Positions 46,177 through 53,131 of a stretch of 53,816 nucleotides of DNA are shown piece by piece. The notes under the pieces are model-generated. The model saw only the letters and a program-made list of their open reading frames with translations, ran no database searches and was not told the origin of the DNA. The stretch is taken from contig LGEZ01000016.1 of NCBI GenBank assembly GCA_001508005.1, positions 1-53,816 of the forward strand. The letters run 5' to 3'. The position numbers and the translations under genes were made by a program. How positions within the stretch are numbered: the stretch's first letter is position 1; every line of letters starts with the position of its first letter. This stretch comes from Clostridia bacterium 41_269 (GTDB lineage Bacteria > Bacillota > DTU086).

Positions 46177-47478
46177 TTAAAAAAACTTGTTTTCCTTTCT
46201 CTTTATTTCTTCTTTTGCTAAGTCCAAATCATAAACAGAGCACCCTTTAAATTTTAAACAGCATATGTATGATGCACTAACAGAAGCTGTCATCAAAGGA
46301 AGAGCAATATTATAGTTGTTGGATAATTCAATAACCATTATTACTGCGGTTAATGGAGCATTAAATACCCCCGCCAAAACCGCTGCAATACCTGCAGCAA
46401 TATATGTTTCATGGGAGCCAATAATATTTGGAAAAAAAACACCTGCTAAATGCGAAAACATCCCACCCAAAAGAGATCCAAGTACCAAAGAAGGTGCAAA
46501 TAACCCTCCTGAACCACCACTTCCTAATGTTATAGAAGTAGCAGCTACTTTTGCTGCTAATAGTACAATTAGCACGTCCGTTTTAAATTGGTTTTTTAAA
46601 ACTGATTCAATTGTTTCGTATCCTTCACTTAATACCTGAGGTATGAATAAAGCAAATATTCCCAGTAAAAAACCTCCAGCTATTGGGTTTAAAAATAATT
46701 TATATTCTCCATTCCTAAAACTATTCTCAGCTTTGTTTACAAAACGAATAAAAACTACTCCTAAAAAACCACCAAAAATTCCTAGAAGTAAAAATATAAA
46801 CAGCTCCTGCCAACCACCCCATATGGCATTAGGAATGTTCAACAAATGGGTATTACCCCATAGCTTTCTGTAAATTTGTGTAGAGGTTATTGATGATAAT
46901 ACAAAGTAAAGAAAAATATTTCCATTAAAACTTTTTACGATAGCTTCCATAGCAAATAATATTCCTGCTATAGGAGCATTAAATATTGCAGCTAGTCCTC
47001 CAGCAGCTCCAGCCGCAGCAGCTATTTTTAAGTTTTCATTCTTAAGTTTAAATAGCTGACCCACAGCAGAACCAACACCAGCACCTATCTGAACCATTGG
47101 ACCTTCGGGACCTACAGAACCTCCACTACCTATGCACAATGAAGAGGCTAGCGCTTCCACTGGTGCTACAAAATAAGGTATTTTCCCATCTTTAATTCTG
47201 ATAATCTTTATTACTTCAGTAACGCCATGGCCAAGATTCTTTTTTGTCAAGGTATTTTTTACTAAATAATTAACTGTTGCTAAACCTAACATAGGTATAA
47301 ATAAATAATTTAATTTACCTAAAAAAGATAGTAATTTACTTAATTCTATCCACATAACTTTATCAAAAAAATGAACAAGCCATCTAAAAATAACTGCTGA
47401 TATACCTGATAAAAATCCCACTAAAACACAGATCAATAAAATTTTTATCTGTTTTTTTATTTCTTTTGCAGTGCTCAT
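46177..47478 (-). CDS. CLC-family chloride/anion transporter
   Basis: A polytopic protein of about 433 aa with the CLC anion-pathway motifs GSGGSVGPEGP (gating Glu near residue 125), AAIFNAPIAGILFAMEA and GSGGSGGLFAPSLVLG. The equivalent of the second, proton-side glutamate of E. coli ClcA seems to be Ala (EA instead of EE). ATG 47478 is preferred over GTG 47487 on the position of GGGTGAT. It lacks CBS domains. It is transcribed in the same direction as the his operon, 110 nt upstream, separated by the his promoter. Confidence 0.92.
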   Translation of the reverse strand: MSTAKEIKKQIKILLICVLVGFLSGISAVIFRWLVHFFDKVMWIELSKLLSFLGKLNYLFIPMLGLATVNYLVKNTLTKKNLGHGVTEVIKIIRIKDGKIPYFVAPVEALASSLCIGSGGSVGPEGPMVQIGAGVGSAVGQLFKLKNENLKIAAAAGAAGGLAAIFNAPIAGILFAMEAIVKSFNGNIFLYFVLSSITSTQIYRKLWGNTHLLNIPNAIWGGWQELFIFLLLGIFGGFLGVVFIRFVNKAENSFRNGEYKLFLNPIAGGFLLGIFALFIPQVLSEGYETIESVLKNQFKTDVLIVLLAAKVAATSITLGSGGSGGLFAPSLVLGSLLGGMFSHLAGVFFPNIIGSHETYIAAGIAAVLAGVFNAPLTAVIMVIELSNNYNIALPLMTASVSASYICCLKFKGCSVYDLDLAKEEIKRKENKFF

Positions 47479-47529
47479 TATTATCACCCGTACATTATTT
47501 TTTTTAGTTCGTTAAAAAAACAATTTTTA

Positions 47530-47568
47530 CAAAAAAAGAAATCCCTGGACTTGTAGCCCAGGGATTTC
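47530..47568 (-). terminator. terminator of the oxidoreductase operon
   Basis: GAAATCCCTGG (47538-47548) pairs perfectly with CCAGGGATTTC (47558-47568); on the minus strand TTTTTTTG follows. Confidence 0.9.
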
Positions 47569-47580
47569 TATCTTTCAGTT

Positions 47581-48579
<999 letters not shown>

Positions 48580-49782
48580 TTAATCCATTTCTTCTAAGTC
48601 AAATGGGCTTACCCAGGACTGATCAGCTTCAGGCTGCTTTCCGGAATCTGCATACTCTTTTACAAGTTTGAAGATGTAGTAGAATTCTTCACGACTAAAT
48701 ACTTCTCCTCCTAATCCGCCTAAGAAGCCTAGTACTGGAATATTTGTCACACCATAAAGTGCAGCTTTTACTTCAGCTTGAACTGGGCCAGTTCTACCAG
48801 TGATACCGAAGGAATTGGAATTATCAAATACACCTACACCTTTTGCGTTAGCCAATACTTCTCTTAACTGCTTGGTTGGGAATGGACGGAATGTACGAAT
48901 TCTTGCTACACCAACTTTTTCACCTAAGTTGCGGAGTTTCTTAGCAACAACCTTTGCAGTCTCTGCATGTGCACCAATACCTACCAGGATGTAATCAGCA
49001 TCTTCTGTCATGTACTGCTCAATCCATGGATCATATTTACGTCCAAAGATTTCACCAAACTCTTTCCATACTTCTTCTACAACCTTTGGTACTTCGTCCC
49101 ACAGCTTCTTACGCTGATACTGCAACGGTGGTCCTTGTATTGGTGCAATCTGTGGACCTATAATCATTGGATCTCTTGGATCAAGTATATGATGGTTCTT
49201 ATATGGTGGTAAGAACTCATCTACTTGTGCTTGCTCTGGAATATCTACCTCGTTGAGAATATGGGATACAAAATAACCATCCATGCATGCAAACTGTGGT
49301 AACAGAACCCTTGGATCCTCACCAATTCTGTAATAAGCAATTGTGTTATCTAATGCTTCTTGAGGTGTTGATGCCCAACCCATGATCCATCCCTGGTCAC
49401 GACAAGACATTGCATCCATGTGCTCTGAACCAAAGTCTCCCGGTGGGTCTAATGTTCTATCAGCAATAGCCATTTGTACTGGTAATCTTTCACCGGAAAT
49501 TGGGGAGTAAACTTCAAATGCGTATGTTACACCAACACCAGCGCTACCTGTATAAGCTCTTGCACCTGCTGCTGAAGCGCCATATACAACGCTCAGCTGT
49601 GCGTGTTCACCTTCACCGTGTACAAACTCAGCATCTAAATCCCCATCAGCTACCATACGTGCCAGCTCGGACATGATTCCTGTATATGGACGAATTGGAT
49701 AAGAACAAATTACATCAACATTTGCCAAACGAGCTCCGTGAGCTGCAGCTACACAACCAGAAATATATTCTTTTCTACCCAT
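48580..49782 (-). CDS. 2-oxoacid:ferredoxin oxidoreductase alpha subunit with oxalate-oxidoreductase active-site residues
   Basis: A 400-aa PFOR-like alpha subunit. Where pyruvate enzymes have YPITP, this has SYPIRPYTGIMSELA with Arg at residue 31. In the next loop DRTLDPPGDFGSEHMDAM places Arg109 and Asp112. From memory these three (R31, R109, D112) are the carboxylate-binding and switch-loop residues of Moorella thermoacetica oxalate oxidoreductase. Oxalate oxidation would give two CO2 and reduced ferredoxin. AGGAGGTG lies before ATG 49782. A pyruvate or other 2-oxoacid specificity is less likely but not excluded. Confidence 0.85.
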   Translation of the reverse strand: MGRKEYISGCVAAAHGARLANVDVICSYPIRPYTGIMSELARMVADGDLDAEFVHGEGEHAQLSVVYGASAAGARAYTGSAGVGVTYAFEVYSPISGERLPVQMAIADRTLDPPGDFGSEHMDAMSCRDQGWIMGWASTPQEALDNTIAYYRIGEDPRVLLPQFACMDGYFVSHILNEVDIPEQAQVDEFLPPYKNHHILDPRDPMIIGPQIAPIQGPPLQYQRKKLWDEVPKVVEEVWKEFGEIFGRKYDPWIEQYMTEDADYILVGIGAHAETAKVVAKKLRNLGEKVGVARIRTFRPFPTKQLREVLANAKGVGVFDNSNSFGITGRTGPVQAEVKAALYGVTNIPVLGFLGGLGGEVFSREEFYYIFKLVKEYADSGKQPEADQSWVSPFDLEEMD

Positions 49783-49806
49783 TAATTATTCACCTCCTCA
49801 AGGTAA

Positions 49807-50112
49807 TTAATCTTCAAATTCTAATTCTGGTACCATTGTTATTGCTCCGGTTGGGCATTCATTGGCACATACTCCACAACCTTTACAGTATTTATAGAAG
49901 AATTCAGGTCCATTCTCTCCACGTGTAATTATTGCATCAGCGCAGAAGATCCAGCACTGCCAGCACTGTGTGCACTTTTCTGTATCCAGTACAGGACGCT
50001 GCACTTTCCAGTTACCAGTTACTTGCTTGTCGTTTTCAGTTTTCGGGCTGGGATAAGTACCAGCAAATGGCAGCTCTTCATACAATTTTAGCAACTCAGC
50101 TCTTAAACCCAT
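49807..50112 (-). CDS. 2-oxoacid:ferredoxin oxidoreductase delta (ferredoxin) subunit
   Basis: A 101-aa protein with two [4Fe-4S] ferredoxin motifs: KCTQCWQCWIFCADAI and YCKGCGVCANECPTGAI. The N-terminal 45 residues (GLRAELLKLYEELPFAGTYP) pack on the other subunits in family members. It passes electrons from the TPP site to free ferredoxin. GGGGGTG lies 8 nt before ATG 50112. It is a separate gene here, whereas my recollection of the Moorella enzyme is a fused gamma-delta chain. Confidence 0.88.
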   Translation of the reverse strand: MGLRAELLKLYEELPFAGTYPSPKTENDKQVTGNWKVQRPVLDTEKCTQCWQCWIFCADAIITRGENGPEFFYKYCKGCGVCANECPTGAITMVPELEFED

Positions 50113-50143
50113 TAACTACACCCCCTTAAATATTTCATATAAT

Positions 50144-50830
50144 TTATGCAACAGCTGAAACATCTTCAAGTACGCAGTTCTCATATCCATTCTTGAATGC
50201 TTCTTTATTTGCAACTTCATTTAACGCAGCATCATAGCTTACTATACCTGTAGCTTTTACAATTGCTCCTACCAAAGCTGCGGAAATACCTACACCGATA
50301 CCGGACTTGTCGTAAACGCCTTCAGCACCGTCCAGGGTGACGACCGCCTCAGCCATTCCGAAAGCATCAACAGTAACGATCTTGCTTATTTTTTCAAGCT
50401 GCTCTTTCGGGATAAACTTGGCGATTTCAGCCGGGCTACGCTTAGTGTTAACAACCAGAGTCTTAGGAGTCGGACCCTCAACCAAGCTGCAAAGACCCGT
50501 CAAACCCGGATAGTTTAATGAGAGGCTCTTAACCAAGGTCTCCTCGGTCAGAACAACGATTTCAGGGTCATCATTTTCATAAACATATCTACTTTCAATG
50601 GGCTCATCAGCAATTCTACCATATGCACGTACGGGAACATAAATTCTGTCAGGTAGGTCTACATAGTTTTCAAAAGCCTGTACATATTTGCCTTCACTCT
50701 TCCATGCAGCGTTTGTTAAAATAACAACTACGTCACGTGCTTCTTTGTTTTGAAGAACTCCTCTTGCCCACACAGTAATCTGCCTTAAAGTTGGCTCTTC
50801 AAACAATTTTTTTACATCAACATCAGCCAC
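50144..50830 (-). CDS. 2-oxoacid:ferredoxin oxidoreductase gamma subunit
   Basis: A 228-aa Rossmann-like gamma subunit: QITVWARGVLQNKEARDVVV at the start is a variant of the usual RGGQG-type opening, followed by GKYVQAFENYVDLPDR, RAYGRIADEPIESRYVYEND, VLTEETLVKSLSL, and GMAEAVVTLDGAEG with GAIVKATGIVSYDA. The canonical Gly-rich entry is degenerate. GTG 50830 has GGGGG 8 nt upstream. It is the first gene of the operon, preceded by a structured leader. Confidence 0.8.
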   Translation of the reverse strand: MADVDVKKLFEEPTLRQITVWARGVLQNKEARDVVVILTNAAWKSEGKYVQAFENYVDLPDRIYVPVRAYGRIADEPIESRYVYENDDPEIVVLTEETLVKSLSLNYPGLTGLCSLVEGPTPKTLVVNTKRSPAEIAKFIPKEQLEKISKIVTVDAFGMAEAVVTLDGAEGVYDKSGIGVGISAALVGAIVKATGIVSYDAALNEVANKEAFKNGYENCVLEDVSAVA

Positions 50831-50968: not shown

Positions 50969-53131
50969 TTACTTAATCATAGCAACTCTTTTTGCACTTT
51001 TGCTTTCTTGTCTTTTAACTGTTTCTAATGCTTTCCTGAAATGCTTCATCTTAATTTTCAGAAGTTCTTTGTCTTTTGTTACATCCTTGACATTTTCAGC
51101 TTTTTCAATAAACTCCTGAAGCGCTAAAAGTGATGCCTGTTGACATATTCCTTCTATATGAGATCCTGCCATTCCTTCTGTTTTTTCAACTAATTCGTCT
51201 AAATCTACATCATCTGCCAACGGCCTATCCTTTACGTGAATTTTAAATATTTCCTTTCTCATTTCTGCATCAGGCATTGGGAATTCAAGAATATAATCAA
51301 ATCGCCCTGGTCTTAACAATGCTTGATCCAATGTCTCAATTCTGTTTGTAGCAGCCAGTACAATTACTCCTTTTAATTCTTCAAGACCATCAAGTTCGCT
51401 AAGCAAGATACTTACCATATGCTCAGTTGTCCTTGTATGTCCAGCTGTTCCCCTTTGGGGAGCCAGCGCATCAATCTCATCAAAGAACAGAATACATGGT
51501 GCTGCTTGCCTTGCTTTCCTGAATATTTCCTGCAGCGTTTTTTCTGCTTTTCCCGCCCATTGTGAGAACAACATTGGACTAGGTACATTGATAAAGTTAA
51601 CTTCACTTTCAGTTGCTATAGCTTTTGCCACCAATGTTTTTCCTGTACCTGATGGGCCTGACAATAATATTCCTTTAGGTGTATCCATTTTTACGTGATC
51701 AAACAGCTCTGAATATTTCAGCGGCCAATCAACTAATGCCGTTAATGTCTTTTTAATTTCATCTAAACCACCGACATCATCCCAACTTACATTGGGCACT
51801 TCAGAGAAGAATTCCCTTGTTGCTGAGGGCTGTACCTGTTTTAGTGCTTCCATAAAGTCCTGCCTAGTAACAACCATTTCTACCTGCTGCTTCTCTGCAC
51901 CTTCTCCTAAGTCAAGCTCAGGGAGAATTCTTCTCAATGCATTCATACCTGCTTCTTTACACAGGAAGGCAAGGTCTGCACCTACAAACCCGTGGGTAAT
52001 AGCTGCAAGCTCTTTTATGGAAACATCATCTGCTAAATTCATTCCTCTGGTATGAATTTGCAGAATATCTTCCCTTCCATATCTGTCTGGAGCATTTATA
52101 GGAACCTCACGATCGAAGCGTCCAGGCCTTCTAAGGGCTGGATCCAAAAGATCCGGCATGTTTGTAGCGCCGATGACTATTATTTCCCCACGGGTTTCTA
52201 AGCCGTCCATTAATGCTAGAAGCTGTGCCACTACTCTCTTTTCAACATCTCCGTGAACATCTCCACGTTTGGGTGCCAGCGCATCTATTTCATCCAGGAA
52301 AAGAATACTGGGTGCGTGTCTTCTTGCTTCGGCAAAAAGTTCTCTTAGTCTTGCTTCACTTTCTCCATAGTATTTATTCATAATCTCAGGGCCATTGACA
52401 TGAATAAAGTATGCCTGACTCTCAGAAGCAACAGCCCTGGCTATTAATGTCTTACCCGTTCCCGGCGGCCCATACAGCAATACTCCCTTGGGTGCCTCAA
52501 TACCAAGCGTCCTAAAAACTTCTGGGAACTTCATGGGAAGCTCAATTATTTCCCTTACCCTCTGTACTTCTTCATCTAAGCCGCCAATATCTTCATAGGT
52601 AACTCTCTTAGTTTTAGTAAACTCTTCAGGTTCTTTGATTTTTATTTGAGTTTCTTTAGTAATTACTACCGGGCCTTTAGGGTTGGTTCCTGCTACTGTA
52701 AATGATTCGTCGGTACCTACAAGCATAACTGTAATCTTATCCCCTGTCACACAGGGTATTCCAATCATCATGCGATGAAGATTGAACAATACATTTTCGT
52801 CATCGTACTTTTTGGTAGGATCATCAGGGGTGAGCACTATTGTCTTTGCGGGCTGTACTTCTGTTTTTCTAATTTGAACTTTCTCATCTAAACCTACACC
52901 TGCATTGTATCGTATTGTTCCTGTCATCATAACTGCATCATTTCTGCAGTATGCACCAAACGAGGGGACAACTTTTGCGACGGTTTTTCTCTTTCCCAAT
53001 ATCTCTACATAATCGTTCAGCTTAACGCCGATCTTCCGCATATCTTCAGTATCCATACGGATAATGCCTTTGTTGGTGTCTTCTAGCAAGCCTTCAATTA
53101 CTCTTAACCTGATACTTTCCCTTTTTGCCAT
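50969..53131 (-). CDS. CDC48/VAT-type double AAA+ ATPase, 720 aa
   Basis: An N-terminal double-psi-barrel domain (residues 1-165; LRVIEGLLEDTNKGIIRMD, VPSFGAYCRNDAVMMTG) precedes two AAA modules. Walker A is GPPGTGKT at 221-228 and GPSGTGKT at 492-499, Walker B is LFLDEID and LFFDEID, and Arg-finger regions are RRPGRFDREV and LRPGRFDYIL. The layout is that of archaeal VAT/CDC48 unfoldases, which extract and unfold proteins for proteases. In bacteria such genes occur in a minority of lineages, so transfer from archaea is a fair inference. GGGAGGT lies before ATG 53131. It lies upstream of the oxidoreductase genes on the same strand with a 138-nt gap. Confidence 0.93.
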   Translation of the reverse strand: MAKRESIRLRVIEGLLEDTNKGIIRMDTEDMRKIGVKLNDYVEILGKRKTVAKVVPSFGAYCRNDAVMMTGTIRYNAGVGLDEKVQIRKTEVQPAKTIVLTPDDPTKKYDDENVLFNLHRMMIGIPCVTGDKITVMLVGTDESFTVAGTNPKGPVVITKETQIKIKEPEEFTKTKRVTYEDIGGLDEEVQRVREIIELPMKFPEVFRTLGIEAPKGVLLYGPPGTGKTLIARAVASESQAYFIHVNGPEIMNKYYGESEARLRELFAEARRHAPSILFLDEIDALAPKRGDVHGDVEKRVVAQLLALMDGLETRGEIIVIGATNMPDLLDPALRRPGRFDREVPINAPDRYGREDILQIHTRGMNLADDVSIKELAAITHGFVGADLAFLCKEAGMNALRRILPELDLGEGAEKQQVEMVVTRQDFMEALKQVQPSATREFFSEVPNVSWDDVGGLDEIKKTLTALVDWPLKYSELFDHVKMDTPKGILLSGPSGTGKTLVAKAIATESEVNFINVPSPMLFSQWAGKAEKTLQEIFRKARQAAPCILFFDEIDALAPQRGTAGHTRTTEHMVSILLSELDGLEELKGVIVLAATNRIETLDQALLRPGRFDYILEFPMPDAEMRKEIFKIHVKDRPLADDVDLDELVEKTEGMAGSHIEGICQQASLLALQEFIEKAENVKDVTKDKELLKIKMKHFRKALETVKRQESKSAKRVAMIK

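Follow-up and report, generated by a model that had tools for sequence, protein, structure and literature searches.

Identity of the ferredoxin oxidoreductase

Which substrate is oxidized by the four-subunit ferredoxin oxidoreductase encoded on a contig of Clostridia bacterium 41_269 (LGEZ01000016.1, positions 1 to 53,816; this whole stretch of 53,816 nucleotides is referred to as the window), and why does a gene for a CDC48/p97-family AAA+ ATPase precede it? The candidate is oxalate oxidoreductase (OOR), a rare known enzyme through which anaerobic bacteria draw electrons from oxalate and for which, to our knowledge, biochemical detail comes from one organism only, Moorella thermoacetica. We propose, with a probability of roughly 0.85 for the explanation as a whole, that the locus encodes a four-subunit OOR together with a dedicated CDC48 remodelling ATPase. 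The enzyme itself adds one more member to the known OOR kind and holds nothing else that is new; the new part is the co-inherited, uncharacterized CDC48 motor that travels with it.

An earlier note on this DNA had assigned the range 48580-50830, which takes in gamma, delta and alpha, with beta falling just beyond, to OOR, and this assignment is upheld by the closest solved relative, a curated model, the active-site residues and the tree. Among solved structures, alpha, beta and gamma come closest to chains A, C and B, respectively, of the M. thermoacetica OOR 5c4i (E 4e-190, 2.6e-161 and 5.7e-65, the last over residues 3-203), with 278/394 identical residues (70.6%) in alpha and 232/306 (75.8%) in beta. 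The NCBIfam model NF045791 ("oxalate oxidoreductase subunit alpha") gives alpha 690.8 bits against a cut-off of 500; this is a wide margin, and automatic annotation would therefore probably name alpha an OOR subunit, not a pyruvate synthase as the earlier note had expected. Gamma passes NF045790 (269.8 bits, cut-off 230, profile positions 2-206 of 316), delta alone reaches 151 bits at positions 224-316 because this model describes the fused gamma-delta chain, and beta stays about 4 bits under the cut-off of NF045792 (585.6 versus 590). We regard it as almost certain that the four genes encode an OOR.

The earlier note had also proposed an alignment and a tree of alpha, and here alpha falls inside the OOR clade, apart from the pyruvate oxidoreductases, with 100/100 support. 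A ferredoxin oxidoreductase for pyruvate or 2-oxoisovalerate with Arg at position 31 by chance would share the superfamily, and alpha is indeed about 36-43% identical to pyruvate-type alphas and scores 328.6 bits with the NCBIfam model PorA_Arch, though under its cut-off of 550. Since alpha is far closer to OOR in identity, is nested in the OOR clade, matches OOR at every loop residue and exceeds the cut-off of the OOR model, such a chance resemblance is extremely improbable. A pyruvate or ketoisovalerate oxidoreductase identity was ruled out by the alpha tree and the NCBIfam models, ketoisovalerate oxidoreductase alphas being compared through the NCBIfam model only.

The active site points the same way. 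Alpha carries Y28-P-I-R31-P and R109-T-L-D112-P-P-G-D116-F117, in which R31, R109, D112, D116 and F117 match 5c4i chain A column for column; the YPIRP motif with Arg31, and Arg109 and Asp112, are all present as the earlier note had read them. Asp112 and Phe117 have a role in the mobile loop of OOR. In an alignment of 37 alphas, 32 from the OOR clade and 5 non-OOR (pyruvate-type), R31, D112, D116 and F117 are present in 32/32 OOR-clade sequences, whereas the five others carry T at position 31 and either A or S at position 112, with D at 116 in 2/5. R109 is found in 37/37 rows, pyruvate enzymes among them, and is therefore not diagnostic for OOR, although the earlier note had counted it among the defining residues. 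This is in line with the structural work on OOR, in which YPIRP is unique to the enzyme, Arg31 and Asp116 are actors in the mobile-loop mechanism, and Arg109 is also kept in the archaeal enzyme compared with OOR (PMC5020499).

The ligands for three [4Fe-4S] clusters, in beta and delta, and the thiamine diphosphate site are all present: beta has C38, C41, C66 and C240, corresponding to C24, C27, C52 and C225 of Moorella beta, as well as a GDG...N motif (thiamine diphosphate site), and delta has two intact CxxCxxCxxxC motifs at residues 47 and 76. The window enzyme thus shares subunit content, Arg31, Asp112, Asp116, Phe117 and cluster and cofactor ligands with the Moorella OOR (PDB 5c4i, 5exd, 5exe). 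The four-subunit pyruvate:ferredoxin oxidoreductase (PDB 9bt4) has the superfamily, the electron path and four separate subunits in common with it, but has YPITP instead of YPIRP, lacks the Asp112/Asp116/Phe117 loop and lies outside the OOR clade.

Co-occurrence of CDC48 and OOR

OOR is widespread among bacteria, being found in 26 of the 300 Bacillota genomes sampled, with further loci in Nitrospirota, proteobacteria and Chloroflexota. Overlooked by the earlier note, a conserved CDC48 gene lies upstream of OOR. Among the Bacillota, CDC48 is present in 25/26 genomes with OOR versus 3/274 without it, and in all 25 genomes with both it immediately precedes OOR on the same strand and is separated from gamma by 3 to 410 bases. 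The Bacillota with OOR represent 13 families, 12 of which have a linked CDC48, and the Moorella-like genome G016 likewise has CDC48 directly upstream. In a second sample of 297 genomes from a second phylum, 8/8 genomes with OOR over the cut-off have an adjacent CDC48, while any CDC48 is found in 24 of the 289 others. Outside Bacillota a GntR regulator often stands between CDC48 and OOR, and in two Betaproteobacteria CDC48 is found some 5 kb beyond beta, on the far side of a second oxidoreductase. In three betaproteobacterial loci (L031, L033 and L034) OOR is immediately followed on the same strand by another, distinct 2-oxoacid oxidoreductase.

The CDC48 proteins encoded at OOR loci also belong together by descent. 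In a tree of 62 CDC48s, from which L084 was excluded as a long branch, 36 CDC48s from OOR loci (L125 counted) form one clade with 100/100 support, recovered in 200/200 bootstrap trees, and the unlinked CDC48s fall outside it, including the second copies in genomes G126, G279, G317, G322 and G536. L125, unlinked at first sight, falls in the OOR clade; its genome has an OOR (L030), and on its contig the same GntR regulator comes after CDC48, gamma not being found there. The CDC48s kept beside OOR diverge down to 47% identity. The CDC48 upstream of OOR thus belongs to a subfamily inherited with OOR across phyla, and given the adjacency and the separate clade we therefore treat it as part of the OOR system.

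The window CDC48 has the N domains PF02359 and PF02933 and two AAA rings (PF00004 twice), and both rings of the OOR-linked CDC48s largely retain the Walker, pore-loop, sensor and arginine-finger motifs. It shares these domains and motifs with archaeal VAT and eukaryotic p97. It differs from them in belonging to a separate bacterial, OOR-tied subfamily and in ending with KRVAMIK, without, as judged by eye, the C-terminal hydrophobic-tyrosine-X tail, a proteasome-docking element. The actinobacterial Cdc48-like protein Cpa is likewise a bacterial CDC48 relative in a fixed genomic context; the paper on it groups bacterial CDC48s other than Cpa with archaeal ones, and the section considered mentions no oxalate link (PMC6017811). 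A partial literature search, with the primary OOR papers outside its coverage, returned no report of a link between oxalate and CDC48 or between Moorella and an AAA protein, and we provisionally consider the OOR-CDC48 link unreported so far.

Predicted reaction and role of CDC48

We infer that the window OOR performs the oxalate:ferredoxin oxidoreductase reaction. The catalytic cycle is carried over from the Moorella enzyme, while homology, residues, cluster ligands, clade and gene order come from the present analysis. Oxalate would bind beside thiamine diphosphate, with Arg31 and Arg109 holding it in place, and be decarboxylated on the cofactor, after which the mobile loop with Asp112, Asp116 and Phe117 would rearrange; a second CO2 would then be released, and two low-potential electrons would reach ferredoxin by way of the single [4Fe-4S] cluster of beta and the two of delta, in a reaction expected to use no CoA.

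Gene order and phylogeny suggest that CDC48 is very probably coupled to OOR in function. It may remodel OOR itself, serving in its activation, assembly or repair by using ATP to open up or pull out a subunit that is stalled, misassembled or oxidized; AAA+ proteins dedicated to other enzymes, Rubisco activase among them, offer an analogy. We rank this role highest, since the transporters change from clade to clade but CDC48 remains with OOR. In Fervidicola, Thermosediminibacter, CEB3 and L032, beta is directly followed by an oxalate/formate antiporter (two tested antiporters reach 413 and 372 bits with model TIGR04259, cut-off 335), and proteobacterial loci have a tripartite tricarboxylate transporter downstream. 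CDC48 could instead be linked to OOR while serving another part of oxalate metabolism, for instance in quality control of a membrane transporter or by acting on a regulator, given that CDC48/p97 proteins generally have many substrates and that a GntR regulator is linked along with the tripartite transporter in the proteobacterial loci. We consider this less likely, since the transporters vary by clade (MFS antiporter, tripartite or CLC) as CDC48 and OOR remain together, and since in the window CDC48 is present with no GntR beside OOR. That CDC48 would act on the OOR protein itself, and not on a transporter or regulator, we put at an even chance. Somewhat more doubtful is the broader proposal that OOR across bacteria may depend on its own CDC48/p97-type activase or repair machine, a p97-class motor recruited for one 2-oxoacid oxidoreductase.

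CDC48 might also be a passenger without shared function, derived from archaea and acquired once together with OOR. Whole operons can be transferred, and sporadic bacterial CDC48s are considered archaeal genes gained by horizontal transfer (PMC6017811). Against this, adjacency is kept in 12 of the 13 OOR-bearing Bacillota families and in the second phylum even as CDC48 identity falls to 47%, and CDC48 is still near OOR in the Betaproteobacteria with altered gene order, which makes a passenger quite improbable.

Several observations weigh against an OOR with its own remodelling ATPase. The Fisher p-values for the association (4e-32 in Bacillota and 8e-9 in the second sample) count related genomes as independent. 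Genome G022 has OOR with no CDC48 detected, at a completeness of 78%, and no CDC48 lies in the examined flank of L025, an OOR locus of Chloroflexota whose genome has a CDC48 of the unlinked type. The linked CDC48 of L084 (genome G047), placed inside the OOR-linked clade by a quick tree, has a degenerate second ring, with Walker B and arginine finger lost, and an intact first ring. The genome of the window has no recognized oxalate importer (best match to the antiporter model 228 bits versus a cut-off of 335), and the gene adjoining beta encodes a CLC chloride channel and lies behind a terminator. Acetyl-CoA synthase is absent from the genome as searched. L084 may be a natural variant that could tell which ring matters.

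The missing antiporter, the CLC channel that takes its place in the window's family, and the fact that the characterized OOR comes from a single organism would also suit an OOR-like enzyme shifted to another small dicarboxylate or an oxalate analogue. All active-site residues compared are unchanged, and such a shift is very unlikely next to oxalate as the substrate. One divergent OOR-like alpha (L134, genome G519; 44% identical) keeps YPIRP with Asp116 replaced by Ala (RALDDPGAFG), with gamma-delta fused and CDC48 not adjacent; this enzyme possibly has a different substrate.

The earlier note had suggested oxalate transport and formyl-CoA genes as a check; in this genome, beside the antiporter result above, oxalyl-CoA decarboxylase is not over its cut-off (211 versus 739), and the oxalyl-CoA route was set aside. 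Acetogenesis was rejected despite the presence of formate-tetrahydrofolate ligase; having no acetyl-CoA synthase, the organism is therefore not an acetogen like Moorella.

Split and fused gamma-delta genes

Gamma and delta are separate genes in the window, with a stop codon and a 31-base gap between them, and form one fused chain in Moorella, as the earlier note had stated; its suggestion that the split is distinctive does not hold. The window's family has split genes, as do several other Bacillota and almost every OOR locus outside Bacillota, and a reading of the split as unusual was ruled out. Among clear OORs, only the Moorella/Thermosediminibacter group, G047 and one Chloroflexota locus have the fusion, the divergent outlier L134 being fused as well. 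As split genes are common among members of the OOR clade, fusion is no defining feature of the family; it is a lineage trait and a minority state, not an OOR hallmark. In L009 (genome G016), whose alpha is nearly identical to that of the crystallized Moorella OOR, a TAG codon stands in frame early in the gamma part of the fused gene; this could reflect a strain-specific pseudogene, a sequencing error or readthrough.

Organization of the locus

The genes are transcribed from the minus strand in the order CDC48, gamma, delta, alpha, beta, hairpin (Table 1), with 138 bases between CDC48 and gamma, 24 between delta and alpha and 12 between alpha and beta. The hairpin is likely the end of the OOR transcript, judging from its sequence; terminator-like sites across the region are in total no more frequent than in shuffles, and the 15-pair stem after beta is the longest by far.

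Table 1. Features of the OOR locus and its flank in the window
Feature	Coordinates	Strand	Evidence
CDC48/p97-family AAA+ ATPase (720 aa)	50969..53131	-	TIGR01243, 893.5 bits, cut-off 802.65
OOR gamma (228 aa), equivalent to N-terminal part of Moorella fused delta chain	50144..50830	-	5c4i chain B residues 3-203
OOR delta (101 aa), 2x[4Fe-4S] ferredoxin, own gene	49807..50112	-	NF045790 profile 224-316 of 316
OOR alpha (400 aa), R31, R109, D112, D116, F117	48580..49782	-	5c4i chain A; NF045791
OOR beta (328 aa), thiamine-diphosphate site and proximal [4Fe-4S]	47581..48567	-	5c4i chain C; Cys ligands
Intrinsic-terminator-like hairpin, 15 pairs and T run, 3' of beta	47537..47569	-	Consensus match
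CLC-type chloride channel/transporter, just past OOR terminator, beside beta	46177-47487	-	Position conserved in G001-G003

The CLC gene keeps its position in three related genomes (G001-G003), with identities of 47-61% versus 88-97% for beta. It was left out of the OOR system despite this conserved position, because a strong terminator lies between beta and CLC. By eye, it has Ala at the position of the proton glutamate of E. coli ClcA. In a record from the same genus, the thiamine-biosynthesis gene ThiC (L014:589-1890) lies upstream of the CDC48-OOR genes, where the corresponding stretch of the window would be past the contig end; this may relate to the supply of the OOR cofactor.

Implications

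If OOR is indeed the target of CDC48, a single metabolic enzyme would have a p97-class ATPase of its own. This would explain why CDC48 is retained in some bacteria outside Actinobacteria, and would be relevant to the expression of OOR in other hosts, for example for oxalate removal.
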